A stretch of 64,000 nt of DNA from a virus. Both the position numbers and the translations under genes were made by a program. Shown piece after piece: positions 922 to 51,309 of this stretch (position 1 is the stretch's first letter; each line of letters begins with the position of its first letter). The notes beneath the pieces are model-generated. The model saw only the letters and a program-made list of their open reading frames with translations. It did not search any database and was not told the DNA's origin. Location: positions 84,570-148,569 of the IMG/VR virus record IMGVR_UViG_3300036939_000023; one strand, 5' to 3'.

Positions 922-1080
922 TTAGTTACTTATTAAACTATCTAAATAACTAATTTCAATACCACATTTGTTACAATACTTTACTGCTGCATCATACATC
1001 TGTTTAGTATGTACTTCATCATTGTTATTTCTGTAAATCTTAATTACTTGAATATACCAATTTAAGTTAGTTAATGACAT
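922..1080 (-). CDS. Small unknown protein with a CxxC pair
   Basis: This 52-codon reading frame starts inside the 3' end of the Rnl2 gene, overlapping it by 14 bases, and is probably translated from the same transcript. The product is MSLTNLNWYIQVIKIYRNNN followed by a segment with YCNKCGI, a single CxxC pair. It is too short to assign. It ends just before the promoter box of the next gene, consistent with being the last gene of the RNA-repair operon. Confidence 0.55.
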   Translation of the reverse strand: MSLTNLNWYIQVIKIYRNNNDEVHTKQMYDAAVKYCNKCGIEISYLDSLISN

Positions 1081-2035
1081 TTAACCACACACTTCTAATA
1101 GTGTTACTACATAACTTATTTAACTGCTTATTTACATTCTTGCTAATCACTAACTGATTGTCTTTACTATAATCTTCAATAACATCTTTAATATATAATC
1201 CTAACACTTTACCAAAGTCATTACTAGTTAACTCTCCTAACTTACTAGTTACTGAGTAAACTCTACTTTCTGTAATTAGTTCAGTTAGTTTAGTTAATAC
1301 TATATTCTCTTCTTCTGTTAATGTAACTATTTTAGCTGGAGGTCTACCTTTGTTACTACTTTCTTTAAATTCTGGAGACTTGCATTTAATAATTACTCTA
1401 TCTCCAGTTCTTAATGTTAAGTAGTTAACTGGTTTAATTACATAACCTTCTTCATTATTAACTTCTAATTTCTTATAATCATTATTTAGTAGATTAGGTA
1501 TTAGTGAGTTAAAGGTTAAGTTGTTAGTGCAGTAAGTTAAAGAGTCTTGTAAATTACCTCTAAAATGTTCTGGCGCTAACTTTAGCTTAGTATAATAAGT
1601 TAGTACTTTTAAGACTTTATAGTTAATATAATTAAGGTTAACTATATTATCTTCTATCCAAGTAACTAAGATATCAAAAACAATAAATTCTCTGCCACTA
1701 CAGTATTTAACTCTATTGTTAATACCATCTCCAATTAACTCTCCATATACTTGAATTTGTTCTATCGGAGATTCATCATTAAATACTTTAAATAAATATC
1801 TAATATCTTGACTGTATTTATCTATTACAGGTTTACAATTAAAGAATGTACTATCAACTATTTGTGTTCTACTTGCTACTTGTACTTCATTACCATCACA
1901 AATAAAACTAAAGTTAGCTCCATCTAATTTACTAGTTACTACAAATTCTTCATTACCATAACCATGTTCAATGATACTGTTAATGTACTTTTCTCTGTAA
2001 CTGTTCTCAATACTGCTGTACTTAGTAAATTGCAT
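1067..2035 (-). CDS. rnl2: RNA ligase, T4 Rnl2 type
   Basis: This 322-residue ATP-dependent RNA ligase is of the T4 gp24.1 (Rnl2) family and seals breaks with 3'-OH and 5'-phosphate ends. All nucleotidyl-transferase motifs can be seen in order: motif I VTSKLDGANFSF with the lysine that becomes adenylated (about residue 37), an ASRT element, motif III VYGELIGDGI, motif IIIa REFIVFDILV, motif IV NEEGYVIKP and motif V VIIKCKSPEFKE. The length is close to T4 Rnl2 (334). It follows the kinase/phosphatase gene across a TAA-TT-ATG junction and so completes an RNA-repair operon with both an Rnl1- and an Rnl2-type ligase. Confidence 0.92.
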   Translation of the reverse strand: MQFTKYSSIENSYREKYINSIIEHGYGNEEFVVTSKLDGANFSFICDGNEVQVASRTQIVDSTFFNCKPVIDKYSQDIRYLFKVFNDESPIEQIQVYGELIGDGINNRVKYCSGREFIVFDILVTWIEDNIVNLNYINYKVLKVLTYYTKLKLAPEHFRGNLQDSLTYCTNNLTFNSLIPNLLNNDYKKLEVNNEEGYVIKPVNYLTLRTGDRVIIKCKSPEFKESSNKGRPPAKIVTLTEEENIVLTKLTELITESRVYSVTSKLGELTSNDFGKVLGLYIKDVIEDYSKDNQLVISKNVNKQLNKLCSNTIRSVWLNVIN

Positions 2036-2037
2036 AA

Positions 2038-2895
2038 TTAAAACTCGTATTCTCTACCTACTTTAAATACAAATAAACCTAACTTATTCCAACAGTTTCT
2101 AATTACACTAGGTCTGTCATCTAATACAAATTTAACATTGTAGTAAGGTTCAATATGTTGATAATATAATTCTTCTTTAATTACATAATCTTTTCTACTA
2201 TCTCCAGTAGCTCTCATTAGTAATAAACCATTAGGAGCTTTATTGTTAATTAAGAATGTTCTAGTAGGTTCTTCATATTTCTGTTCTCTACCAGTTAAAT
2301 AAATTATTGTGCAATCATTACTATATCTATTAAGTACATCTAATACTTCATTGCAAACATCATCTTTATCACAAGTAGAACAATCAAAGTAACTTCTACC
2401 ATGATTGTTTAAAGCTAAAGTGCCATCTAAATCTACTAAGATACAATTAGCTTTATTACTATCTATTTTTCTACTAACTGGTTTACAAACAAAGTCATAA
2501 TACTGTTTTAAAATTACATCTTTACCTACACTATTTAATCTCTGCAAATCTTGTTTAATACAAGTTTCTATAGATACATCTAAAAATGACTTAATCTCTA
2601 CTGTTGCTTTATCTTTTACTAATTGTCTAATACGTTCTTCATGTTTAGGTGCTAAATTAGTGTCTGCAACTATAATATTTTTACTTTCTTCAATAGCTGC
2701 TAATATAATTGCATCTCTTATTTTAAGTACAAAATTTTCATTTCCTTTACTATATTTGCCATTATCTAACATTAGACGTAAATCATCTTTGCATACAATT
2801 TTAGTATTTGAATGTTGTTTAATGTATTCTTTAGCCCAATAACTTTTACCACTACCACTAAGTCCTATAGTTAAAATTACAGTTGGGTTGTCCAT
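2038..2895 (-). CDS. pnk: Polynucleotide 5'-kinase/3'-phosphatase
   Basis: This 285-residue protein has the T4 Pnkp architecture. The amino-terminal kinase has the P-loop GLSGSGKS (about residues 11-18). The carboxy-terminal HAD phosphatase carries LVDLDGTLALN with the catalytic DxDGT (about residues 154-158). T4 Pnkp is 301 residues. The enzyme converts 2',3'-cyclic phosphate/5'-OH ends, as left by anticodon nucleases, into ligatable ends. The gene overlaps the end of the Rnl1 gene by 19 bases and sits 2 bases before the Rnl2 gene, so the three are almost certainly co-translated for tRNA repair. Confidence 0.93.
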   Translation of the reverse strand: MDNPTVILTIGLSGSGKSYWAKEYIKQHSNTKIVCKDDLRLMLDNGKYSKGNENFVLKIRDAIILAAIEESKNIIVADTNLAPKHEERIRQLVKDKATVEIKSFLDVSIETCIKQDLQRLNSVGKDVILKQYYDFVCKPVSRKIDSNKANCILVDLDGTLALNNHGRSYFDCSTCDKDDVCNEVLDVLNRYSNDCTIIYLTGREQKYEEPTRTFLINNKAPNGLLLMRATGDSRKDYVIKEELYYQHIEPYYNVKFVLDDRPSVIRNCWNKLGLFVFKVGREYEF

Positions 2896-3974
2896 TGATA
2901 TAACTTCTTAATATCTAAATCTAATAAAAACTGTTCTACTGTACTAACTCTATTTAAGTACAAATTAAATAAACAATTACTATAAAAATAGTCTTTAACA
3001 CTTAATGCAAATTCTTTTCTATCTGTTATCTGTTTAGTTGTTATCCAAGTGTAGTTAATAGTTTCTACTAACTTGTTGTACTTATTATTTAAATTAACTA
3101 TTTCTTCTTCTAGTTCATTAAAGTAAGTTAATAGTTCTTCCGTTTCATTTCTTCTAATAACATCTAATAATGCATAAGGTGTATTAGTATTACTACGAAT
3201 ATGATGTAGAGCTACATATTCTTCACTCTTAATCTTAATCCTGTTAAAGTTACTATCAACTACTACAAGTCCTTCTAACTGATTACCTTTAGTAGTACTT
3301 AAGTAATCTAGTATTTGTTGTATATTAGTTAATTTATATTGTTTAACTATTTCATAATTAAGACAGCTAGCTAATCCAGCTAATGACATAACAGCAATTT
3401 CTACATAATCACTTAATCTTCTAGCACCTAATAACACTAATTTAGGCTTTTTATATTCAACAACTACTTTATTGTAAATACTGCATAATTCAAATATAAA
3501 AGTATAATTATTATTACTTATAAAATGTGTAGGTAACTTATAATCTAACTGATTAAAGACTCTCCAAAACAATTGTTCAAAAGTAAAGTCATAACCATTA
3601 ACTTCACCACCTGCATCTGCTTTACCACTAGTAGCTATAAGCCATTCTGAGCGGTAATAGAATAGTTGTACAAGACTTCCATCTAACTTCTCCTGAACAA
3701 CTGCTGTAGACCAATCTATAACCTTCTCAGCTTCATTCTGTCCATAGTTATAAAATCGTTTAAATGGATAACTAATTACTTTCCAATCATCATCTTCATC
3801 TAAAATAATTCCTCTACATTCTTGTACTACTGGATGATAAGTAGGTGACTTAATTTGATCATATTTAAGTAATACTAAATTAGGATATTTGCTATGTCTA
3901 TTATGTTTAATACCTAATTCAGTTTCTAACTGTTCTAGTGAATTATTACTTAAGTAGCTTTGTATTTCTAACAT
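2877..3974 (-). CDS. rnlA: RNA ligase, T4 Rnl1 type (tRNA repair)
   Basis: This 365-residue ligase resembles T4 gp63 (374 residues), which reseals tRNA cut in the anticodon loop. Visible motifs are RGIILDE (about 54-60), motif I VVQEKLDGSLVQLF with the nucleophilic lysine (about residue 94), a SGK element after motif I, the IFELCSIYNKVVVEY segment (motifs III/IIIa), motif IV LEGLVVV and motif V RIKIKSEEYV. It is the first gene of the operon, with kinase/phosphatase and Rnl2 downstream. In T4 this pair defeats the PrrC anticodon nuclease, so a similar counter-defence role is inferred here. Confidence 0.92.
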   Translation of the reverse strand: MLEIQSYLSNNSLEQLETELGIKHNRHSKYPNLVLLKYDQIKSPTYHPVVQECRGIILDEDDDWKVISYPFKRFYNYGQNEAEKVIDWSTAVVQEKLDGSLVQLFYYRSEWLIATSGKADAGGEVNGYDFTFEQLFWRVFNQLDYKLPTHFISNNNYTFIFELCSIYNKVVVEYKKPKLVLLGARRLSDYVEIAVMSLAGLASCLNYEIVKQYKLTNIQQILDYLSTTKGNQLEGLVVVDSNFNRIKIKSEEYVALHHIRSNTNTPYALLDVIRRNETEELLTYFNELEEEIVNLNNKYNKLVETINYTWITTKQITDRKEFALSVKDYFYSNCLFNLYLNRVSTVEQFLLDLDIKKLYQWTTQL

Positions 3975-14921: not shown

Positions 14922-15164
14922 CTAAAATGGTAGTTGTTGCCAAAAACTTTTATCTTCAGGTTTTAGTAAACCTACAATTGCATTTTTACCAATATAAGTA
15001 TATTCTTTAGTACTATTTTTAAACTGTACTTTAATACCTACTTTCTTACCATCAGTAAATAATTTACAACTAACGATATTGTCATAAGTATTTAACTTAC
15101 TAACAAGTTGTTTCCAAAGTATTAATGGATCAGTATTTTCTTTATTCACTAAATTAAATTGCAT
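14922..15164 (-). CDS. Unknown 80-residue protein
   Basis: The product starts MQFNLVNKENTDPLILWKQL and is basic and mixed. Its start faces the divergent cyclase gene across about 40 bases. No family is recognised. Confidence 0.55.
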   Translation of the reverse strand: MQFNLVNKENTDPLILWKQLVSKLNTYDNIVSCKLFTDGKKVGIKVQFKNSTKEYTYIGKNAIVGLLKPEDKSFWQQLPF

Positions 15165-15203
15165 AGTTATACTGTAACTGTTTAACTAAATGTACTACTG
15201 AAT

Positions 15204-15764
15204 ATGTTGATTTACAAATACTTAAGTGACAATTTAATTGATATCTTTCATAGTTCAAATAACCCCCTAATATCTTCTACTAAATGTACTAAAACAATTA
15301 TGTTTGTTGATAAACGTAATTTCACTAAAGACACTCAATCACTATCATTAGAAAACTTACTAATACAACTCAACGAACATATTGAGAAAGTTAGTATAAT
15401 TATCAAACCTTATGGAGGTAAGATTGATAAATTTTTAGGTGATGGCATACTTATATTATTTGATAGTAGTAAGTTTGCAGTAGAAGCAGCCATTAAATTA
15501 GTACAACAAATACCTAATATTGGAGTAGGTATTGATTGTGGTGAAGTACTCTATGGAACTATTGGTAATCCTAATAGTGAAAGATTGGATTGGAGTGTAA
15601 TTGGAGTACCAGTAAATAGAGCTTTTAGAATAGAAGGATTAACCTCTAAACTAAAAACTCCTATTCTTTATACTGAAACAGTTAGTCATAATTATCCTAG
15701 TAGCTATTTAGGATTATATGAACTAAAAGGTTTCAGTTTAACTAAGCTGTTCTATCCTCAATAA
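15204..15764 (+). CDS. Class III nucleotidyl (adenylate/guanylate) cyclase
   Basis: The 186-residue product is nearly a bare cyclase homology domain from residue 33. In order: TIMFVDKRNFT with the first metal-binding aspartate, GGKIDKFLGDGILILF with the second (G-D-G), the GVGIDCGEVLYGTIG block, and SVIGVPVNRAFRIEGL with the transition-state Asn and Arg (NRAFR). The lysine in IDKF and the serine before VIG sit at base-specifying positions and are nearest to adenylate-type, but pyrimidine specificity cannot be excluded. A usual Asp in the GDxVN position is valine. It is the only rightward gene in 37 kb and overlaps the next convergent gene by 23 bases. TATACT (15168-15173) is its -10 candidate. 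Inference: an acquired gene that makes a cyclic nucleotide in the infected cell. Confidence 0.85.
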   Translation: MLIYKYLSDNLIDIFHSSNNPLISSTKCTKTIMFVDKRNFTKDTQSLSLENLLIQLNEHIEKVSIIIKPYGGKIDKFLGDGILILFDSSKFAVEAAIKLVQQIPNIGVGIDCGEVLYGTIGNPNSERLDWSVIGVPVNRAFRIEGLTSKLKTPILYTETVSHNYPSSYLGLYELKGFSLTKLFYPQ

Positions 15765-16266
15765 GTTTAATTAGTTCTTCAGGTATAGTTAGCTTAGATA
15801 CTTCATTAGATAATGAAATAAAATACTCATCAGCAATACTACCTACTATTTCTAGTTCTTTCCAATTAAATTCTTCAGTACCTTCATGAGGACAATAAAA
15901 ATTAAGTTTCCATTCTACTGTGTAGTTATACATACCTAGTTCAGGTAGATAATCGTTTTCATCTTTGTACTTACCTTGTTGTATTTGTTTAATTCTAAAA
16001 GCACAATAATTAGAGCAATAAATAATTTCTCCTATTGCAGGAATTAAATTAGTTACTACACCAATTTCAGGGTCATTATATTCTTGAGCTGTAAATTTAA
16101 CTACATCTCCTTCGTAAATTAATCTATTATTCTTATCAGTAACACCAAGACATTGTTGAACTATGTAATCTTGAAAAATTATAGGTGAGCTTAATACATA
16201 AGCTAAATCAGTATTGGTATATTCTTTTCCTACATTATTCCAAATTCTAAATTGAAATCTGTTCAT
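15742..16266 (-). CDS. YopX-like protein
   Basis: The 174-residue product starts MNRFQFRIWNNVGKEY and carries QCLGVTDKNNRLIYEGDVVKF, the signature of the phage YopX family (usual form QYTGLKDKNGKEIYEGDIV). The carboxy end holds WKELEIVGSIADEYFIS, also typical. YopX proteins form ring-like assemblies and their role is unknown. The end overlaps the convergent cyclase gene. Confidence 0.8.
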   Translation of the reverse strand: MNRFQFRIWNNVGKEYTNTDLAYVLSSPIIFQDYIVQQCLGVTDKNNRLIYEGDVVKFTAQEYNDPEIGVVTNLIPAIGEIIYCSNYCAFRIKQIQQGKYKDENDYLPELGMYNYTVEWKLNFYCPHEGTEEFNWKELEIVGSIADEYFISLSNEVSKLTIPEELIKLIEDRTA

Positions 16267-24175: not shown

Positions 24176-24248
24176 TAGCTCGTATTGGAATTGAACCAAT
24201 ATCTTCTTAGTTATGAGCTAAGTGCATTAACCATTATGCTAACGAGCT
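24176..24248 (-). tRNA. tRNA with CAU anticodon (Met or AUA-reading Ile)
   Basis: Read leftward from 24248 it folds as a full cloverleaf: acceptor AGCTCGT/ACGAGCT (7 pairs), D arm GCAT...ATGC, anticodon arm CTTAG-CTCATAA-CTAAG with anticodon CAT, and T arm ATTGG-TTCAATT-CCAAT. The discriminator is A and no CCA is encoded. A1-T72 pairing and the lack of GGG/CCC in the anticodon stem argue against an initiator tRNA. It may be elongator Met or the lysidine-modified Ile that reads AUA, a codon used often in these AT-rich genes. Confidence 0.92.
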
Positions 24249-28965: not shown

Positions 28966-29045
28966 AATACCTACTACTAGATTTGCACTAGTATCTCCTA
29001 AAATATGAAATTAGTTGCATTACTTATGCTAAGTAGGCTAGTTAA

Positions 29046-31144: not shown

Positions 31145-33208
31145 TTAATTAGTTTTAGAAATTGACGGCGATTCATGTTTGCTTCTTTTAACTACTATTG
31201 GATTATTCTTGAGTAGTGGTATCTCTAGTTCTAGTGTAGTGAAGATTCTAGTCCAGTCCAGTTGCCTTGGTTCTATTCTGCATCCACTAGTTAATATAAT
31301 ACCTAACTCATGTAAAGCTAATACAATCTCATGAGGTAAGCCTAGATCATAAGCAGCTATTTGTTGCTCGTATTTTACTTTCTCATCAATTAAACCTCTG
31401 AGTTCTTTAGCTATATCTTCTTCCTTAACCACAGTTACAGCCAAACCATTATCATCTGTAATTACTCTTTCATTAAGTAAATGAAACTGTTGTGTTTTAT
31501 TGTCTTCTCTTTGTTTTCTCAGTTCTTTAATTTTGCTTGATAGCTTCTCAATATGACGTTTGAAGCTTAACATTTTACGCTCTAAGTCATCAGTCATGAA
31601 GCCACTATTTAATTTAGTAACTCTAGGACTGTAAAAAGTTAATATATCTACATTTGATCTTGCAGATTTTATCCATATCTGTCCTACTTCAGTAGCTATT
31701 GAAGTTTGCCTCTCAACATAAACAATATTAGCTAGCACGTCTTTAAAGCTAGAATGTGGCTTAGCTTTATTGTTGCTCTCTAAATAAAATAGCCTCAGTT
31801 CGTAGTTATTGGTTTCAGCTAGCTTTATGTAGTTTGCCCCCTTACCTCCTTTATTTGTATTTTTAACACTTTTAGGTCTACCACTAGAGCCAAGCATATT
31901 AGAGTGCTTGACTTCCACTCTCTCAATAACCTTAATCTTGTTAGCTTCCATATACTGGGAAGGTTTTTTACCGCTAGAATCGTTGGCTACCTTAAAAGTG
32001 GTATCATTGGTCATTCTTATTTTGTTATTTAATCTTCTGCTATCAATCTCCTCAACCAATACATAGCTACCGAAGTTATCAGCATTAAGTCTTAGTCCAC
32101 CTGCAACTATTCTCATCCAGTCATTAGAGATGTTAAAACTGGTACGTTTGAGAATATGTGAAATAACTACTAATTTCCAGTAACCACAAAAAGCAGCGTA
32201 TCTGGTATAGCCACTCATATCTACTTCAATGTCTAGTAATTTAAATAACTCTCCTAACTTAATCTGAACATAAACATCAGTTACGGGAATTACTCTCTCA
32301 TCAACTCTAGTTAATACAACGGCTTTTTTGTTATGGCTTCTACCTTTTATATCAACGTGTGGATCGTCAAATAGTTTAATTTTTCTTTCAAACTTACCAG
32401 TAACCTTATCAGACTTACTAAAAGCTTCTCTAACTGACTCAATAACCTGTCTGCTGTAATTACGTCTTAAGCCTGTCAGGAAGTCTTCTAGATGTCTCTC
32501 AGGAAACTCTAAATAAATGACCCTAACCCAATCTTTAAATGTTTTGATACTCTTACTGGAATAATTGCCAGTATTTTGTTGTTTAAAGTTAGCAATACCT
32601 AGAATCAATTGGTTGGCTTTATTAGTTTCTCTCGGTAGTTGTATTGACTTATAAGCTACCTTACCTGTCTCTAACTGCTTGTCAGTAAGTACTTGTTGTT
32701 CTTTAAGTGAGAAGAAGTAGTTAGCTAAGTTAACCCAATCAAAAGTAAACAATTCTCGGACATCCTCCATTACTTGATTAACTGATTTAAAAGCAACTTC
32801 ATAATTAGATGTCTTTGTGATAATAAAAACATCCTGCAACAATTCAGAATATAGTAGTGCTTTATTGTTAGCTGGAAACTTTATATCCGTTACTTGGTAA
32901 GTTCTGTAAAACCAAAGTTTATTGGACAGAATGAAATCAATAAATGAATCAGCCGTGTAGTTAGGCTCTAAAAGGATTGTAGGTGCCTTAGATACCTCAG
33001 TGATACATTCATCTTTAACAACAGCTTCATCGGTTACAGAAGCTTCTAGAGCAGACTTAATGTTATTTAGTAGTTGCTGCCATGTTTCAGTTTTACTCCA
33101 ATTACCGGAGATAGTAGCCGCCTGGGGTAGTACCTTAGCTTCACTAGCAGAAATAGAAGATAAATTGAGTAGTTGACAGATTTCAGCTTTGATTGAGTTA
33201 ATAGACAT
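31145..33208 (-). CDS. Large unknown protein, 687 residues
   Basis: ATG 33208 (MSINSIKAEICQLLNLSSIS) has AGG at 10 bases and fits a leader shared with its neighbours; the start at 33250 is less likely. The first 55 residues form a helical domain (ASEAKVLPQAATISGNWSKT then a tryptophan-rich helix), the centre is basic, and a coiled coil lies near residues 545-575 (KRHIEKLSSKIKELRKQRED). The ending is basic. It is the largest protein of a less AT-rich six-gene block. No catalytic motif was found; a DNA-binding or replication role is only a guess. Confidence 0.65.
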   Translation of the reverse strand: MSINSIKAEICQLLNLSSISASEAKVLPQAATISGNWSKTETWQQLLNNIKSALEASVTDEAVVKDECITEVSKAPTILLEPNYTADSFIDFILSNKLWFYRTYQVTDIKFPANNKALLYSELLQDVFIITKTSNYEVAFKSVNQVMEDVRELFTFDWVNLANYFFSLKEQQVLTDKQLETGKVAYKSIQLPRETNKANQLILGIANFKQQNTGNYSSKSIKTFKDWVRVIYLEFPERHLEDFLTGLRRNYSRQVIESVREAFSKSDKVTGKFERKIKLFDDPHVDIKGRSHNKKAVVLTRVDERVIPVTDVYVQIKLGELFKLLDIEVDMSGYTRYAAFCGYWKLVVISHILKRTSFNISNDWMRIVAGGLRLNADNFGSYVLVEEIDSRRLNNKIRMTNDTTFKVANDSSGKKPSQYMEANKIKVIERVEVKHSNMLGSSGRPKSVKNTNKGGKGANYIKLAETNNYELRLFYLESNNKAKPHSSFKDVLANIVYVERQTSIATEVGQIWIKSARSNVDILTFYSPRVTKLNSGFMTDDLERKMLSFKRHIEKLSSKIKELRKQREDNKTQQFHLLNERVITDDNGLAVTVVKEEDIAKELRGLIDEKVKYEQQIAAYDLGLPHEIVLALHELGIILTSGCRIEPRQLDWTRIFTTLELEIPLLKNNPIVVKRSKHESPSISKTN

Positions 33209-33289
33209 TGATTTAAACCTGAGTAGTGTTAGTTGAGTATAATTACTCAATATCCCTTACAGTCACTAACTAAAAGGGATAGTCAATAA

Positions 33290-33766
33290 TTAAATCTCAG
33301 TAGTTACTTCTACATTATTAAAGTAATTATCAACTTGATCAATGATTGAGTCTACTAGTTGCTGATACGTTACATTGCTCTGATAAATACTATTACCCCA
33401 TTTACTCATGGGTCTTGAGAAACATTTACCTCCTGGATTAGTAATAATATGGCTGAGGCTAGTTACTTCATGACCTGAAAACTCAGAAGACTTTTCAACT
33501 AACAGCTTATTCAACTTCATCTTTAACAAACTAAGAATCCTTTGTGCATCAAAGTAATACTTACTATGACAATCGCAGTAAGCTTGATGTAATTTTTCCT
33601 CTAACTGATAACTTAGACTCTCCTTAATTTTTATTTGAGAAACATAATCACACAATTCATTGTAAGGGGACTCGATGATTTCCAATCCTAGACTAATCAA
33701 GTATTGCTTATCGATAGGTTTTAATTGAGTTAAAGCATACTGTCTGGAAATATTAACTGTAATCAT
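33290..33766 (-). CDS. Unknown 158-residue protein
   Basis: MITVNISRQYALTQLKPIDK... is helical with LEEKLHQAYCDCHSKYYFDA and a histidine-rich centre. The leader is the double-hairpin element at 33774-33838. No family is recognised. Confidence 0.6.
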   Translation of the reverse strand: MITVNISRQYALTQLKPIDKQYLISLGLEIIESPYNELCDYVSQIKIKESLSYQLEEKLHQAYCDCHSKYYFDAQRILSLLKMKLNKLLVEKSSEFSGHEVTSLSHIITNPGGKCFSRPMSKWGNSIYQSNVTYQQLVDSIIDQVDNYFNNVEVTTEI

Positions 33767-33773
33767 GATCTAA

Positions 33774-33838
33774 CCTCAAATAGTTGTATTAGAGTAATTA
33801 ACTCTATCTAGCTAACAGTCTTTAAACTAATAGCTAGA
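33774..33838 (-). repeat. Double-hairpin leader, copy 2
   Basis: Leftward: TCTAGCTA ... TAGCTAGA hairpin (8 pairs), TAGAGT ... ACTCTA hairpin, then TATTTGAGGTTAGATC-ATG. It is the same order of elements as at 26577-26640, with differences in the loops. Confidence 0.6.
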
Positions 33839-33847
33839 GACAATTAA

Positions 33848-34798
33848 TTAAGCTTGCGGCTGTTCTGTTGTCTCTGTTGTTTCTGTTTTTGGTTCAGTAA
33901 TTACCCAATCTTTCTTTCTGAGATAAGCAAGTATCTGTGGCTTAGCTTTCAGGTTTTTAGAAGCATGTTCCCAAACAGTTACAGACTTCTCTTTGATTAC
34001 AGACAGTAGAGAATCATAGTTTAAGTCTTTAAGTTCCTGTTCAGTAATCCAAGGTTCAGTAGGGATATCGTTGTTAATCTCAGTAGCTACGGCTTCTATT
34101 GTTGTAACTTCTGGATCAGTTGGCGGTACATAAACAGTTGAGCTAATTTGTTGAAGTTCTCGTTTAACTGCTTTCTCAAGTGCTGGAATATTGACACCTA
34201 ACATTTTTAATTCAACGTCAACAACCTCTCGTAATTTGTTCTCGAAATTAGAGATAATTTGATCCCTTACATCAGCTTCAAAGAAACCCCAACTGATATC
34301 CTTGATAACTTCAGTAACTAACTTGATCCACTGATCTCCTGTGATAATTCTCAACTCTGGTGCTGAAATCAAGTTAACTGTTGATGCTTCACCTTTAGTC
34401 AAACTCATTGCTCTCATGCCTAAGCACAAAATAAATAGTTGATTGTTGCCAAGCTTAGTTAACTGATTAATGAGTGAACGATAAAGGACTTTACTATCAT
34501 CCATGAAAAACACTTTCAACAACTTCTCGAATTTGGCATCCCCTGTTATAGCAAGCCCGGTTTCATTGCTCAATTGAATGTCAGAGATTTTTTTACCATC
34601 CTTTACTACCTGGTAAGTAAAGCCAGTATCCGTCTCAATGCTGAACGGGTATTTCTCAGCTAGTGCCATATCAGGAGTTGTTTTAATGTTCTTTGCACTC
34701 AAGTTGAAGGGGAAGATAGTACGTTTTTCTTGTAGTGCTAAAACATCCGTTGCGGCTAGTTCATCAATTTGAGGAAGGAGAAATTTGATATTAGACAT
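33848..34798 (-). CDS. Unknown 316-residue protein
   Basis: MSNIKFLLPQIDELAATDVL... has a beta-rich amino half (SIETDTGFTYQVVKDGKKIS), a helical centre and an acidic, threonine-rich tail (TEPKTETTETTEQPQA). The start has the AAGGATT leader of this block. No family is recognised; an abundant structural or single-strand-binding-like role would fit the acidic tail but is unproven. Confidence 0.6.
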   Translation of the reverse strand: MSNIKFLLPQIDELAATDVLALQEKRTIFPFNLSAKNIKTTPDMALAEKYPFSIETDTGFTYQVVKDGKKISDIQLSNETGLAITGDAKFEKLLKVFFMDDSKVLYRSLINQLTKLGNNQLFILCLGMRAMSLTKGEASTVNLISAPELRIITGDQWIKLVTEVIKDISWGFFEADVRDQIISNFENKLREVVDVELKMLGVNIPALEKAVKRELQQISSTVYVPPTDPEVTTIEAVATEINNDIPTEPWITEQELKDLNYDSLLSVIKEKSVTVWEHASKNLKAKPQILAYLRKKDWVITEPKTETTETTEQPQA

Positions 34799-34884
34799 TT
34801 GACTTGAATCCTTAATGAGTAATGGTTGATTGTTCGTAACTATTTTAGGTTTTAGCTTTTGCCTAGTTACCCACCTTAGCTAAG

Positions 34885-35160
34885 TTAGATGTCGTAGTCT
34901 TCTAGAATCTGTTGATATTCTTCCTTGGAAATGACTATCCAGTTAACTTCACCTAATGGCCTAGTTTCACCCGTGATCAAGTTGGTTGCTATTGTTTCTT
35001 TGTCCCCCTGACCATACTTATTGTTTAATAACCTTTGCTGATTATCCCAAGTCCACTCAGGGGATATGTACCTATAAAAATGAAAACAATCAAAGTAGTG
35101 ATGGTATTTAACTAAGTTCCCTTTCGGCGCATTAATGTGTTTGTGTCCTAGTAGCTTCAT
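34885..35160 (-). CDS. Unknown 91-residue protein
   Basis: ATG 35160 (MKLLGHKHINAPKGNLVKYH) is chosen because AAGGA lies 8 bases upstream, in the leader ACTCATTAAGGATTGAATCA. It contains LITGETRPLGEVNWIVIS. No family is recognised. Confidence 0.55.
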   Translation of the reverse strand: MKLLGHKHINAPKGNLVKYHHYFDCFHFYRYISPEWTWDNQQRLLNNKYGQGDKETIATNLITGETRPLGEVNWIVISKEEYQQILEDYDI

Positions 35161-35228
35161 TGATTCAATCCTTAATGAGTGTTTGAGGTAATCCAGATTT
35201 TTAAGGTTCAACTGCCAACCTAATTTAA

Positions 35229-35903
35229 TTAACGACTCTCTAGTTCAGTTCTTATGGCTTGCAGTTGATTAATTAAGTAAGTGATGTCATTGAGATTCAT
35301 TTGGTCTAAGGGAAGTTCTATTTTTTGCCTACCGCCTAATCGTTTATCTTCACCGTTAATCCTTAAGACTTCTCTATCTAGTGGATCTTTATCTAGCTTG
35401 GCGGTTAGTATTGACTCTGGCATTTCTTTAACTACTGTCTCTTCTGGTGGATAAGGATTGCCTAAGAAGCAAATCTCCTCTAATTCCTTGAGCTTGACGT
35501 ATTTCTGACTACGAATAATCTTAACGGTGTTAACCTTGCCGCTATTAGTTCGGATTGGCTCTACTAAATAATAACCACCTTCAAGTTTTAGGTAGACTTC
35601 ACAATCTTCTTTAGGATAAGTATCTTGACCCCAGACAAATTTAGTACCAAGGGGGAGATATTCTTTAGTATCCTCATCTACTTGAGCTAGGCTTGGTTCC
35701 TCTATCTGCTGTTCTTGAATAAATGCTTCTACCATTGCGAGTGACTTACGGAAAGCAAATAACCTGCCTTTAGTTTCTGCTATCTCTCGACTACAGTTAG
35801 TAGTATATTTATCAGCTTCTAACTTGTTAAGCTTATTCTCTTCTTTGAGAATTGTAGCCTTAAGCTCTTTAACTAACTCGTCAGTTGATGGGATGAAGTA
35901 CAT
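35229..35903 (-). CDS. Unknown 224-residue protein
   Basis: MYFIPSTDELVKELKATILK... has an amino-terminal coil (LKATILKEENKLNKLEADKY), a middle beta domain and a carboxy-terminal helix (LNDITYLINQLQAIRTELES). The ACTCATTAGGTTAAATCAA leader precedes it. No family is recognised. Confidence 0.6.
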   Translation of the reverse strand: MYFIPSTDELVKELKATILKEENKLNKLEADKYTTNCSREIAETKGRLFAFRKSLAMVEAFIQEQQIEEPSLAQVDEDTKEYLPLGTKFVWGQDTYPKEDCEVYLKLEGGYYLVEPIRTNSGKVNTVKIIRSQKYVKLKELEEICFLGNPYPPEETVVKEMPESILTAKLDKDPLDREVLRINGEDKRLGGRQKIELPLDQMNLNDITYLINQLQAIRTELESR

Positions 35904-35980
35904 TTGATTTAACCTAATGAGTGTTGGCGAGTAGCTGCTTTAACCTTTACTTGCAGCTAGTAGTTTTATAGGTCAAACAC

Positions 35981-37342
35981 TTAAGCTAACTGCAATCGGT
36001 TCTCATGGTTAAGCCTCAATAGCTTAATGTAGTCATTGATACTAGGTAATGGCTGATTGATGTAACTGCTAGTCATGAAGTAGATAATAGTGAACCAAGC
36101 GGAATGTACTAAACTTCTTACCTCACTGACATTTTCGTTTAACCCCAGTAGGTATAGATAACACTCCATTAAGTAAGTCCACTCAGTTAGTGATGTAAAC
36201 AGTTGAAGCTTAGGTGTTAGCTGAAACGTAAGGACATTACTAAAATCAATGTGTTCTATTTCTTCCTTTGTAAATAAGGGTTGCTCAACTTCAAAGTTCC
36301 CAGTTCCTTGATTAAAACTAATGGCTTCTTCCTTGGGTAAGTAACAATTAAGCTGACTGACTAACACTCGACTAGCAAAGTAATCTTTAAGTAGTTGCCT
36401 GAATTCTGATTTATTGTGATAATCAAATTCAATTTTAATTACCTTGCCGTTAAGGGAGTAAATTTCATTCTGTGCTATTGCTCCAACTTCAAAGTCAAAA
36501 CTTCCGCTAAGTAATTCATAGTCACTACAATCAACTAACCGCTTAGGATTCCAGTTTAAATCGTAAGTGAATAGCTCATCAGCTTGAGAATGTACTATCA
36601 CATAACGAACTGTACTAAGCATTAATGAATGTTCGGGTGTTGCGTAATCTTCAGACTCGGTTAAGTTGTAGTGCTGCATTAGTTGCTGCTTAATGTTTAC
36701 TGGGTTAACTTCAAGTACTCGATAGAAGCTTCCTGGGAACATTAATTCAGCCGTAAGCTTATCGGTGTAAAGACTATTGATTAATTCCTCTTCAGTTACC
36801 TCTTGTAAGTCTAAGAAAGTGTAATCATCCTTAATTACAACTTGAGGATGTTCAGTAACTACTACTAAGTAACTAACCTCTACTGAAGAATTTTTAGTTA
36901 CCTCTGTAACCCCACCACACTGACTCCCTAAATTCTCATTTACCCCCTCCGCCTCAATATCTAAAATAACTTCCAAGTCTTCCTTAACATATTGCTCAGT
37001 AGCTTCAATCGTTAACTGATTATCTAGTGTCAACTTAATAACACCGATAACCGAGTAACCTTCATAAAGTTCGATGTAAGTATGACCTAACTGTATCTTG
37101 CTGTAATCATCTTTGATTAGGTCAAAAGCTTGATTAAGTAACAAGTAGTCGGGAACTAACTTAACTAGTAAAGTGTTCCAACTATAGGTCTCTGTGTAGT
37201 TAAGAAATGACCATGCTTCCATTACTTCAGCTAATTTTGAATTTCTTTTGGCAACTGTTTTTAAATCCGCTAAGGACTTAATTGGATAATCTAACAAGTA
37301 AGTCAGATTCTTTTTAACTTCTGCGATTGTGTAATTAATCAT
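35981..37342 (-). CDS. Unknown 453-residue protein
   Basis: MINYTIAEVKKNLTYLLDYP... is acidic, with many valine-rich beta segments and a glutamate-rich linker near residues 150-160. GAGGTTAGA precedes the ATG. It is the first gene of the leftward block after the central gap. No family is recognised. Confidence 0.65.
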   Translation of the reverse strand: MINYTIAEVKKNLTYLLDYPIKSLADLKTVAKRNSKLAEVMEAWSFLNYTETYSWNTLLVKLVPDYLLLNQAFDLIKDDYSKIQLGHTYIELYEGYSVIGVIKLTLDNQLTIEATEQYVKEDLEVILDIEAEGVNENLGSQCGGVTEVTKNSSVEVSYLVVVTEHPQVVIKDDYTFLDLQEVTEEELINSLYTDKLTAELMFPGSFYRVLEVNPVNIKQQLMQHYNLTESEDYATPEHSLMLSTVRYVIVHSQADELFTYDLNWNPKRLVDCSDYELLSGSFDFEVGAIAQNEIYSLNGKVIKIEFDYHNKSEFRQLLKDYFASRVLVSQLNCYLPKEEAISFNQGTGNFEVEQPLFTKEEIEHIDFSNVLTFQLTPKLQLFTSLTEWTYLMECYLYLLGLNENVSEVRSLVHSAWFTIIYFMTSSYINQPLPSINDYIKLLRLNHENRLQLA

Positions 37343-45488: not shown

Positions 45489-46009
45489 ATGAAACTCTTC
45501 ATCAGCTATAGTCACAAAGACAGTGAAATAGTATTACCAGTAGTTACTGAATTAGATAAACATTTTGATTGTTGGGAACGTAGTTGTTGCTAGCTAGCTT
45601 TATCTTTCTTCATAAGACAAGCTTACGAAACATAGATAAAGATATACCAGCAGGTAACAAATGGAGATTAGAAATAACCAAAGCTATCAGTAAATGTAAA
45701 GCAGTACTATATTTTGTTAGTAACAACAGTATCAATAGTACTGAATGTGCTATTGAATTAGAATTAGCTACTAAATTAAATAAGAAAATTATACCAATAA
45801 TACTAGAAGATTGTAATTTAACTAAAGAGATAAACGAAGTAACGAGTGCAAATCTTAAACGAGTAAATGAGTTACAGTGGATTTACTTAGAAGATATTTA
45901 TAAGTTGTTTAATGTACTAAAAAATAAACCATTAACAGTAATAGAATTAACAGTTTTATTTAATAGTCTTATGTTGTTAATTATTATGGCATTAACACTA
46001 ATTAACTAA
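45489..46009 (+). pseudogene. TIR domain-TM protein, broken by about 56 extra bases
   Basis: ATG 45489 opens the TIR start MKLFISYSHKDSEIVLPVVT ... DKHFDCW (29 residues), then frame 1 stops at TAG 45591. After about 56 bases (45576-45631) the second frame continues as IDKDIPAGNKWRLEITKAIS, with the TIR core KAVLYFVSNNSINSTECAIE carrying the catalytic-type glutamate (E in CAIE) and IIPIILEDC. A hydrophobic helix ends the protein (about the last 25 residues). The reassembled protein would be a 150-residue TIR-TM effector. The second frame could start at TTG 45584. The TIR domain is in pieces unless the frames are joined. Confidence 0.75.
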
Positions 46010-47430: not shown

Positions 47431-49365
47431 ATGAAACAAAAACAAGATAGAATTCTAAAACATATTTTAATAGCTGGACAATCCTTATCCATAGGATTTA
47501 GTAGTGGTAGTACTAATCTAACAACTTTTCAGCCTTATAGAAACCAAATGTTTTTTGGTGGAGTAGTAGATTTAGATGGTGATGGCCAAACGTTACCATT
47601 AGTTTCAACTAAAGATAATGTAGAAACTATTGCTCCTAGTATGGCAAATATGTTAACTGAACTTACTGGAGATAGTTTTTTAGTATCTGCTCATGGTCAA
47701 AGTGGTGCTCCATATCAAACTATAGGTAAACGAGGTTCAAGTAGTGGAGCTGTTTATCAGAATGGTATGACACAAATTAGACGTGCTAGAGAAATAGCGG
47801 CTGGTACTGGTAGGTATTTGTCTACTCCAATAGTATGTCTAATTCATGGTGAAGCTGATGACACTTTTGCTAATTCGTATTATGTTGAAGATATTAAGAC
47901 AATGTACGATGATTACAATGGAGATCAGCCATCAAGAGGTACTGAACCTTTAACAATGTTTTTCTGTCAAATGAGTAGTTGGACAGAAGTAACTAAAACT
48001 GCTGAACCTACAACGCCTATTGCTCAACTTAAAGCACACGAGAAATATGCACCTAGAATTAATTTAGTTTGTCCTAAATATCACTTAACGTATTCTGATG
48101 GTATTCACTTAAATGTTGCAGGTCAGAAAATGTTAGGAGAATATTATGCTCATGTTATTTTTCATGTTTTATATAAAAAACAATCTTGGAGTCCTTTAAG
48201 ACCTTTAACTATTAATAGTGTTGGAGATAACGATACTGGAATTTATACAACTACTGCTACTTTTCATGTACCAGATAAAGGTAATTTAGTATTAGATACT
48301 ACTTTAGTAAGTAATCCTGGTAATTTTGGTTTTGAATTAGTTAATAAGAATAAAGTAGCATTAACTATTACAAATGTATCGGTTAGTGGTCAAACAGTTA
48401 CAATAACTTCTAGTGGAGGTATTCCAGCTAGATTAAGATATGCTTATACTGGAATTCCTGATAATAGTGCAGGTGCTACTACTGGCCCTAGAGGTAACTT
48501 AAGAAGTGATACAAGATGTTTATCTCGACAAGGTAATACTAATTTATTTCATTGGTGTGTACATTTCGATAAAGTAGTTACGAATACAACTCCAGCACCT
48601 TTAATAACAACACCTAGTACTACGAACTTATTAGCTTGGTGGGATGCTACACAAGGAATAACACCTAATACAGCAATTACGCCTAATAGAGCTTCAAATT
48701 GGGCTACTCGTCAACAATCAGGTGGTACAGCATTTAACTTAGTTCAAGCAAGTCAAGGAAGTCAATTAGAAATTACACCTAATGGATTAAATGGATTACA
48801 AACATTACGTTGTAGTGGAAGCAATCGTAGTATGATATGTGATTTTGGAAGTAGTATTGCTTTTACTGGATGTGATGTTTTTATGGTATTTCGTTATCTA
48901 CCTACTGCTGGTACTAATGCTGCTGCTTTAAGTTTTAATTTAATAGGCAATGATTCTAGTACTGCCAATGGTTTTATTCCTGCAAAATTAACTGGAGTAT
49001 TTTCTACTCAAACTGCTCCGTTATTTGACTGGAAAACATCTACTGGAGTAACATATTCAAGAATAATTAGAGGTAACTGGTATATTTATAATGTAAGAGC
49101 ATCAACTAGTGGATCTAGTGTACTACGTGAGTTATGGTTAAATGGTTTTTATTCAGGTAGAAATACAGCTAGTTCTCAAACAGCAACTATTAGTGTTGAT
49201 CGAATGGTATTAAATGCTCAAGTAATTTCTGGAGCAGTTACTAATCAGTCTTTAATAGAAATAGCAGCATTACTAGTTTACACACAACGTTTAGCTCAAA
49301 CTGATTGGATCCAAACTTATAATTATTTATTTGACACTTATCAAATAGCAGAAGAAATTAGTTAA
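47431..49365 (+). CDS. SGNH-hydrolase tail spike with LamG-like lectin domain
   Basis: The 644-residue product has an SGNH/GDSL esterase domain in residues 10-260: block I ILIAGQSLSIGFSSGS with the nucleophilic serine, HGQSGAPYQTIG, VCLIHGEADD and block V YSDGIHLN with Asp and His. A beta domain follows, and from about 395 a jelly-roll carbohydrate-binding-like domain (NLLAWWDATQGI ... DVFMVFRYLP ... VRASTSGS). It probably de-acetylates host surface polysaccharide during adsorption. The stop overlaps the convergent membrane gene by 4 bases. Confidence 0.75.
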   Translation: MKQKQDRILKHILIAGQSLSIGFSSGSTNLTTFQPYRNQMFFGGVVDLDGDGQTLPLVSTKDNVETIAPSMANMLTELTGDSFLVSAHGQSGAPYQTIGKRGSSSGAVYQNGMTQIRRAREIAAGTGRYLSTPIVCLIHGEADDTFANSYYVEDIKTMYDDYNGDQPSRGTEPLTMFFCQMSSWTEVTKTAEPTTPIAQLKAHEKYAPRINLVCPKYHLTYSDGIHLNVAGQKMLGEYYAHVIFHVLYKKQSWSPLRPLTINSVGDNDTGIYTTTATFHVPDKGNLVLDTTLVSNPGNFGFELVNKNKVALTITNVSVSGQTVTITSSGGIPARLRYAYTGIPDNSAGATTGPRGNLRSDTRCLSRQGNTNLFHWCVHFDKVVTNTTPAPLITTPSTTNLLAWWDATQGITPNTAITPNRASNWATRQQSGGTAFNLVQASQGSQLEITPNGLNGLQTLRCSGSNRSMICDFGSSIAFTGCDVFMVFRYLPTAGTNAAALSFNLIGNDSSTANGFIPAKLTGVFSTQTAPLFDWKTSTGVTYSRIIRGNWYIYNVRASTSGSSVLRELWLNGFYSGRNTASSQTATISVDRMVLNAQVISGAVTNQSLIEIAALLVYTQRLAQTDWIQTYNYLFDTYQIAEEIS

Positions 49366-50030
49366 CTTAAATAATATGGAGATACAACAGCTTCGATAGT
49401 ATCAATAAGCTCATTAAGTTTATCTGTAATTATTGAGTTATCTACTTCAGTATTAAAGTCTAAGTAAACAGCACCTACTTCATTACCATTACTGTCATAA
49501 ATTAATTTAGCATAAGCACTTACAATATTCTGTTTGTTCATCCATTGCTGCATTCGTTTGGTTAAATGATAATTACGTTTATAAACAATATGATAACCAT
49601 TATTGTTACGCATATTTTGTATCTCAGCATCTAGTATTCTAATATCTAAATCAGTAAAGTTTTCTCTTAATACTTCATAACCATTAATAGCTACTTGATA
49701 TTGAATACTGTACTTAGTGAAATAACCATAATCATCTTTATCATGAAATAGTACTAATAAGCTTTTAAAGCTCTTGCTAATAACATTTAAACTACCTAAT
49801 GCTGATAGGATTTTGGTACTATCTTCAACAGTAATTTCTAACTTATTTTTCTTAGTTTCCAGCTTTCTATCTATTTTATTTAGTTTAGGTAATACTTTTT
49901 CTTTAATAGTATAAGTAAGTACAAAAGTAATAACTAAAATAATTGCAGTAAATAAATCATTCATGTAATTATCTAATACTCTAGTTAAAAAGTTAGGAGG
50001 TTCTTTAACTTCATAATTATATTGAGACAT
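49362..50030 (-). CDS. Membrane-anchored sensor-like protein
   Basis: The 222-residue product has one membrane segment (about 26-46, FTAIILVITFVLTYTI), a charged coil (KLNKIDRKLETKKNKLEITV) and a carboxy-terminal alpha/beta domain with SVAKLIYDSNGNEVGAVYLDF-type beta hairpin that is GAF/PAS-like in look (YAKLIYDSNGNEVGAVYLDF). The gene sits next to a PAS-coil-TM gene on the same strand. The fold is a guess from shape; the membrane anchor and coil are clear. Confidence 0.55.
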   Translation of the reverse strand: MSQYNYEVKEPPNFLTRVLDNYMNDLFTAIILVITFVLTYTIKEKVLPKLNKIDRKLETKKNKLEITVEDSTKILSALGSLNVISKSFKSLLVLFHDKDDYGYFTKYSIQYQVAINGYEVLRENFTDLDIRILDAEIQNMRNNNGYHIVYKRNYHLTKRMQQWMNKQNIVSAYAKLIYDSNGNEVGAVYLDFNTEVDNSIITDKLNELIDTIEAVVSPYYLS

Positions 50031-50079: not shown

Positions 50080-51309
50080 TTAAATAAGTTTTTCTACGTT
50101 ATCTATTATCTTCTTAATAAACTTACTATCAACACTGTGACTAACATAAGTAAATAACACACTAATTACTAAACCAAATAACAATATCTGTTTAGCTGTC
50201 AAGTTCTTAAAGAAGAGTAGAAAATTGATACTAGATTGTATGTTTGATATTTTACTATCTAAATCATCAATACGTAATCTATTGTTAGTAAAGTTTCTTA
50301 AGTCTTCTTCTTGATTTTGTTTTAATTTAGCTAATTCACTAACTAAACTATTATCACTTGTATAAACTTTTTCGTATAATATTTTTACTTGTTCTTCTAT
50401 TCTGTTAAGTAAAAGTTCTAATTGTATTAATTCTTTTTCATTACAGCTTTTGTTACTAAGTGTATTAAATAAGTTATTAATATTAGTATCATTATTGTTA
50501 TTAGTTTTATCTAGTAACTCTTGATACTGTTGTTCTTTAAGGTACAGTAGTTCTTTAGTTTCATTGAGTAAATTAAGTTGTTCTAGTAATTCAGTAATAT
50601 CTTCATAAGTATAAAGAATAGCAATAATAAAGTCTTTGATAATAATTGGTATCTTATTAGCTCTTACATGTATCTTCTTACCTTCAGGAGCTATTAAATG
50701 TGTCTCAACTATATTAACTAGTGGTTTCTTAGTACTTGTGATTATGTTGTCACAGTATTTGTAATAACTAATAGTATTGCTAGTAAAATCTAATGAAGTA
50801 AATACAGGTTCATCAACAGCTAAATATGGAGACAATGAATTATTACTACCTAAGTACTTACCTGTATAATCTTTCCAGTAAATATAGATAGGTAAGTTAT
50901 CAATAATTCTATCTGCTGTTGGTTCTAGTACTGATGAAGTTAAGTAGTTATCTTTAAAACCTACAATAATGTATTCATTAGTTTCTACTTCTTTACCAAA
51001 TAACATTAATGAAATAGTATCACTAACAGTTTTAGTAATATTGTTTTGTTTAATAGTTAATGAAATAGTGTTATTGTATTCTTGTTTTTTACCTAAATGT
51101 GTTAAGTACATTAGTAATGAGATATCACTATACGTACTTAATGCTAATGAGTCTAAGAAGCCTACATCTTTGTCAGTAAATATAGTTGAATCTAAATTAA
51201 ATAAATCAGCGTAGTATGCATTAACAGCTAAGTAAGTATATGTATTTGAAGTAGCTGTATATTTTATGTGAATACAAATACAAGGTAGTCCAAATGTATT
51301 AGTTAACAT
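50080..51309 (-). CDS. PAS-like sensor with coiled coil and carboxy-terminal TM anchor
   Basis: The 409-residue product has a PAS-like domain at about 135-245 (NLPIYIYWKDYTGKYLGSNN then IIIKDFIIAILYTYEDITEL); the latter is the usual PAS end. The first 125 residues may be a second, divergent PAS. A long coiled coil covers about 245-375 (ELLEQLNLLNETKELLYLKE ...). A membrane segment lies near 380-398 (ILLFGLVISVLFTYVS). No kinase, cyclase or phosphodiesterase domain is present. TATAAT (51333-51338) lies 24 bases upstream of the ATG. A signalling gene in a phage late region is unusual. Confidence 0.65.
   Translation of the reverse strand: MLTNTFGLPCICIHIKYTATSNTYTYLAVNAYYADLFNLDSTIFTDKDVGFLDSLALSTYSDISLLMYLTHLGKKQEYNNTISLTIKQNNITKTVSDTISLMLFGKEVETNEYIIVGFKDNYLTSSVLEPTADRIIDNLPIYIYWKDYTGKYLGSNNSLSPYLAVDEPVFTSLDFTSNTISYYKYCDNIITSTKKPLVNIVETHLIAPEGKKIHVRANKIPIIIKDFIIAILYTYEDITELLEQLNLLNETKELLYLKEQQYQELLDKTNNNNDTNINNLFNTLSNKSCNEKELIQLELLLNRIEEQVKILYEKVYTSDNSLVSELAKLKQNQEEDLRNFTNNRLRIDDLDSKISNIQSSINFLLFFKNLTAKQILLFGLVISVLFTYVSHSVDSKFIKKIIDNVEKLI

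Follow-up and report, generated by a model that had tools for sequence, protein, structure and literature searches.

Introduction

Class III nucleotidyl cyclases are already known from phages. Searching 50,697 phage records with two probes, we found them in Pelagibacter phage HTVC008M and in four Melnitz-type methylophages, tailed phages of about 140-150 kb whose CHASE2-type cyclases, like those of related contigs, are membrane sensors of 580-680 aa. The match of the HTVC008M protein to PHROG 35576 is full-length. The pelagiphage cyclases lie in a curli/FecR cluster (PMC9599517), and in Melnitz the gene order is csgF, csgG, a curlin-repeat gene and FecR genes, followed by the cyclase. At least 592 IMG/VR contigs carry cyclase relatives, and in the 80 contigs that were examined all complete cyclase ORFs encode at least 482 aa, the shorter ones being cut by contig ends. 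The same search of phage records also returned bacterial-looking contigs and one unverified faecal scaffold with cyclase matches. The records named "Acinetobacter phage MD-2021a" (CAKLQH020000011.1 and CAKLQF020000009.1) resemble bacterial chromosome contigs, and they look bacterial because mfd, hscA and hscB lie nearby in CAKLQH020000011.1.

Two groups of cellular enzymes are relevant for comparison. Lysine together with threonine or serine is the base-recognising pair of adenylate cyclases in the class III group to which CyaC and CyaB belong. Outside the marine picocyanobacteria (Prochlorococcus/Synechococcus), cyanobacteria widely possess cyclic AMP, class III cyclases and CRP-type receptors, and cyanobacterial cAMP works through CRP-type receptors to govern pili, motility and nutrient responses (PMC4284465). 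The PycC cyclases of Pycsar defence systems make pyrimidine cyclic nucleotides (cUMP or cCMP), and for Pycsar clades B, D and E the residues conferring specificity for UTP or CTP have been described (PMC11224242).

Here we analyse a cyclase gene from a different phage lineage than HTVC008M and Melnitz. Its product is likewise of class III and from a tailed phage, but it is only 186 aa long, consists of the catalytic core, lacks an N-terminal CHASE2 or transmembrane sensor, and is the most reduced form that we have seen. Its best viral fold match is an annotated transmembrane sensor protein (COG4252). No CsgG is encoded in the phage record, so that there is no curli context, unlike in Melnitz.

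Results

The phage and its likely host

The window, the whole stretch of 64,000 nucleotides that was analysed, is the end of a 148,569-base IMG/VR virus record. This record encodes a capsid protein (PF03864), portal, tape measure protein (2794 aa), terminase and DNA polymerase of a tailed phage, as well as a B12-type ribonucleotide reductase and RNA repair genes. The nearest isolates for both capsid and polymerase are the Pseudanabaena phages PA-SR01 and Pam2, at 29-36% identity, and both are also among the top terminase matches, again at 29-36%; Pam2, a siphovirus from freshwater, infects Pseudanabaena mucicola (PMC9382816). This kinship of capsid, polymerase and terminase makes a cyanobacterial host likely, and renders plausible the host that had been proposed from the sequence alone. 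The only near relative found is an IMG/VR contig of 6098 bases with a capsid 81% identical, which does not reach the cyclase region, and no terminase relatives were found in IMG/VR.

Several other features of the window are recorded here. An RNA repair cassette (1067-3974) encodes a T4 Rnl2-type ligase, a polynucleotide kinase/phosphatase and a T4 Rnl1-type ligase. A gene block of higher GC (0.32-0.37) at 31145-37342 departs furthest from the phage's usual codon use, and its four largest proteins tested (701, 453, 316 and 224 aa) have no Pfam match. Beside the terminase region, two leftward genes (50080-51309 and 49362-50030) encode proteins that lack a Pfam match and, judged by eye, contain hydrophobic segments; the longer one (50080-51309) looks, again by eye, like a PAS-like sensor. 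Of two tRNA genes with a CAT anticodon (24176-24248 and 28968-29038), one could belong to an Ile-type tRNA that was read as Met.

A lone rightward gene in a leftward block

The cyclase gene and its immediate surroundings are as follows.

15204-15764, + strand: stand-alone class III nucleotidyl cyclase, predicted adenylate cyclase; ATG start, 186 aa
14922-15164, - strand: divergent neighbour, unknown protein of 80 aa; sub-threshold Pfam match, Tsr0524-like (E 0.0013)
15742-16266, - strand: convergent neighbour, YopX-like phage protein; shares 23 bp with the cyclase gene
15145-15173, + strand: TTCACT-17-TATACT, a possible sigma-70-type promoter of the cyclase gene; not above chance

In a non-overlapping ORF prediction, the leftward gene run extends over record positions 63844-121911 (58 kb), of which 37 kb, window positions 1-37342, lie inside the window. 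The cyclase is the sole credible rightward gene of this block: its stop-free stretch of 192 codons is the longest on the + strand there (113 for the runner-up), and the one further + ORF predicted in the run has 61 codons, which upholds the earlier description of a lone gene on the opposite strand. The cyclase start is 39 bp from the divergent gene. A promoter scan of 3.5 kb gave nine sigma-70-type sites such as the one listed against 22 expected, none credible above chance, and no Rfam elements were found near the gene.

The GC content of the cyclase gene (0.287) and its GC3 (0.155) equal the means of the phage genes (0.288 and 0.157), and although only ten of the 88 codon scores are lower than its own, it falls within one standard deviation. 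This agreement in composition indicates that the gene belongs to the phage genome and argues against contamination; the earlier description of the gene as phage-encoded is supported.

An intact active site of the adenylate cyclase type

The protein matches Pfam Guanylate_cyc (PF00211) with 22.8 bits, over the curated cut-off of 21.9 (E 7.9e-5), and a PDB sequence search matched solved adenylate and guanylate cyclases with E-values down to 3e-15. We compared its active-site positions in a 37-row alignment and with 72 ordinary cyclases.

15309-15311, + strand: codon of metal-binding Asp36; invariant in the 37-row alignment and the 72 ordinary cyclases
15429-15431, + strand: codon of Lys76, a base-recognising residue of the adenine type; 66 of the 72 ordinary cyclases also have K here, Cya2 has E
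15441-15443, + strand: codon of metal-binding Asp80; invariant
15594-15596, + strand: codon of Ser131, the second base-recognising residue; 68 of the 72 ordinary cyclases have T or S here, Cya2 has G
15615-15617, + strand: codon of transition-state Asn138; invariant
15627-15629, + strand: codon of transition-state Arg142; conserved in 71 of 72
15204-15272, + strand: first 23 residues of the protein, with two short helices that lead into the catalytic domain; modelled at low pLDDT (64-66)
15459-15521, + strand: beta3-alpha3-beta4 segment, reduced to 20 residues where 74 other cyclases have 27-51

Each of the six active-site positions is thus filled, in the state found in ordinary adenylate cyclases, with K76 four residues before the second metal-binding aspartate and S131 seven before the asparagine. 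The class III assignment of the sequence-only reading and its intact active site both stand, through the Pfam and PDB matches and the aligned D36, D80, N138 and R142, and the check that it had proposed at the base-specifying positions points clearly to an adenylate cyclase. In an AlphaFold2 model (pLDDT 90.9, pTM 0.86) the core strands and helices are all present, and the best fold matches in the PDB are the photoactivated adenylate cyclases OaPAC, from a cyanobacterium, and bPAC, then CyaB, Cya2 and CyaC, with TM-scores up to 0.86 (OaPAC). The best matches by sequence, too, come from this set of adenylate cyclases plus the guanylate cyclase Cya2. The modelled catalytic fold is complete and closest to cyanobacterial and other bacterial adenylate cyclases.

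Compared with CyaB, CyaC, OaPAC and bPAC, with which it has in common the catalytic fold, the metal-binding Asp pair, the Asn/Arg pair and Lys with Thr/Ser, the phage protein has no N-terminal sensor, GAF, HAMP, BLUF or membrane domain. Its beta3-beta4 segment is shorter than in these enzymes and is the shortest among the 75 compared. Neither this short segment nor the catalytic-only architecture touches the active site. The N-terminal helices align with the linker that precedes the catalytic domain in bacterial multi-domain cyclases. This linker and the motifs RLD-F/W-S/T-V-IG and YG-N/T-IG are also found in alphaproteobacterial adenylate cyclases (Ruegeria, Sinorhizobium), a nearness that is partly a product of the search patterns used, but those enzymes have about 390 aa and an N-terminal domain that the phage cyclase lacks. 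Among the roughly 300 bacterial matches listed, about five sit in open frames of less than 230 codons, and the best identity to any of those listed is 45%.

Origin of the gene

The phage cyclase is on a long branch of the tree (3.32 changes per column) and has no supported neighbours. In the free tree it falls outside the viral CHASE2 clade; its inclusion in that clade is not rejected by the AU test (p 0.70). The length of the branch, together with the shortest beta3-beta4 segment of the 75, suggests fast or relaxed evolution. No close relatives were found by exact peptide patterns in IMG/VR or GTDB genomes, and the nearest isolate kin, PA-SR01 and Pam2, have no cyclase match at E-values up to 1. 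Because these kin show no match it is likely that the phage acquired the gene, as had been proposed from its orientation. A recent acquisition is not supported: since GC and GC3 are those of the phage, any acquisition was probably not recent.

Discussion

What might a phage gain from a cyclase of so few residues? We hold it to be rather probable that the protein is a stand-alone, near catalytic-only class III adenylate cyclase that raises host cAMP and acts through host receptors. From the intact adenylate-type active site onward we infer the following course. The protein would dimerise and, as an active homodimer with a preference for ATP in vitro, convert ATP into cAMP. It would be expressed during infection from its own promoter, opposite to the surrounding genes, and since sensor, response-regulator and membrane domains are all lacking, the timing of phage transcription probably determines how active it is. 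The cAMP produced would act on host CRP-type receptors and shift host physiology, in cyanobacteria pili, motility and nutrient-stress responses, and in this way affect the infection. Since the phage record yielded no cyclic-nucleotide-binding protein, host receptors are the likely target. The raising of cAMP in a cyanobacterial host, which had been suggested from the sequence alone, is the best remaining explanation.

The same product could be directed at host defences, by flooding or mis-setting CRP/CNB regulators or a nucleotide-sensing defence, or by lowering defence expression through CRP. The core is stand-alone and unregulated, it has no partner in the phage, and its gene lies among the small uncharacterised genes of the leftward block, a frequent place for accessory phage genes. 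All of this is consistent with counter-defence, but the analysis gives no example of a known defence system that cAMP blocks, and we consider this role unlikely, if the foremost of the alternatives.

Somewhat less probable again is that the cyclase is decaying or inactive and kept by chance. The long branch and the shortened alpha3-beta4 region would fit such decay, as would the failure to find conserved synteny: searches from two neighbouring genes found no syntenic relatives, so that conservation by selection has no support from synteny. However, no catalytic residue is missing, the fold is preserved throughout and neither a stop nor a frameshift interrupts the gene, despite a base composition that has become fully phage-like; under neutrality, part of this would probably have disappeared.

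It is very improbable that the protein is a pyrimidine cyclase of the Pycsar type, making cUMP or cCMP in inter-phage defence or linked to a TIR-TM protein, an option that had been raised from the sequence alone. PycC shares the class III fold and the metal-binding Asp pair with the phage cyclase, PADLOC PycC profiles match it (E 1.8e-9), and its union with two PycC-profile members is not rejected by the tree test (p 0.52; p 0.52-0.65 for grouping with PycC, with long branches). It reaches only 35 bits on the PycC profile, however, against 74-98 bits, two to three times as much, for five ordinary or viral cyclases used as controls (those of Sinorhizobium, Ruegeria, Leptolyngbya and Acinetobacter, and of phage HTVC008M), whereas strong members reach 244-341 bits on PycC profiles. 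The specificity sets compared were Y/D/R for clade B, F/R/Q for clade E, and F/K/F with a zinc ribbon for clade D. At these positions the phage protein has F34, K76, L78 and G81, as do ordinary adenylate cyclases, and a clade-B-like PycC control has Y, D and R where the phage cyclase has F, L and G. The pyrimidine-specifying residues are absent as a set, and so is a C-terminal cysteine cluster. The phage cyclase also differs from PycC in lacking a linked effector: a search of the phage record for a cNMP_binding (CNB) domain found none. On the strength of the profile control, the specificity residues and the missing effector we reject the Pycsar reading.

The same genome does carry a TIR gene, which had been proposed as a possible partner.

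45489-46009, + strand: split TIR-domain gene with a trailing hydrophobic stretch; TIR_2 profile; not considered a partner of the cyclase

The two halves of the TIR_2 profile (2-28 and 29-105) lie in different frames, at window positions 45498-45575 and 45632-45880, so the gene is broken, as had been described. It has no cyclic-nucleotide-binding domain and is 30 kb away, and the link between cyclase and TIR gene is abandoned.

As to the PycC profile PDLC00734 of PADLOC, it matches ordinary adenylate cyclases at 74-98 bits, and the strongest member that we found carries ordinary adenylate cyclase residues; for these reasons it may over-call Pycsar.

A guanylate cyclase is the least probable of all, for although the PDB sequence search ranks the cyanobacterial guanylate cyclase Cya2 first, this enzyme has Glu and Gly at the base positions, where guanylate cyclases have Glu with Gly or Cys and the phage protein has K76 and S131.

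We therefore return to cAMP made by a stand-alone adenylate cyclase. Phages are known to destroy or to sense nucleotide signals; to our knowledge, phage enzymes that make the cell's own second messenger have been little studied. It is possible, though we put it forward tentatively, that a lineage of cyanophages seizes the host cAMP/CRP pathway with a minimal, sensor-free adenylate cyclase, perhaps including the control of defence genes. If so, a host second messenger would be made directly by the phage, which may in this way rewire the host's own signalling during infection. Compared with the large membrane cyclases, a compact, soluble core such as this one, from a genome that is cyanophage-like, would lend itself more readily to expression and testing, and might reveal whether a phage profits from cAMP production as such.
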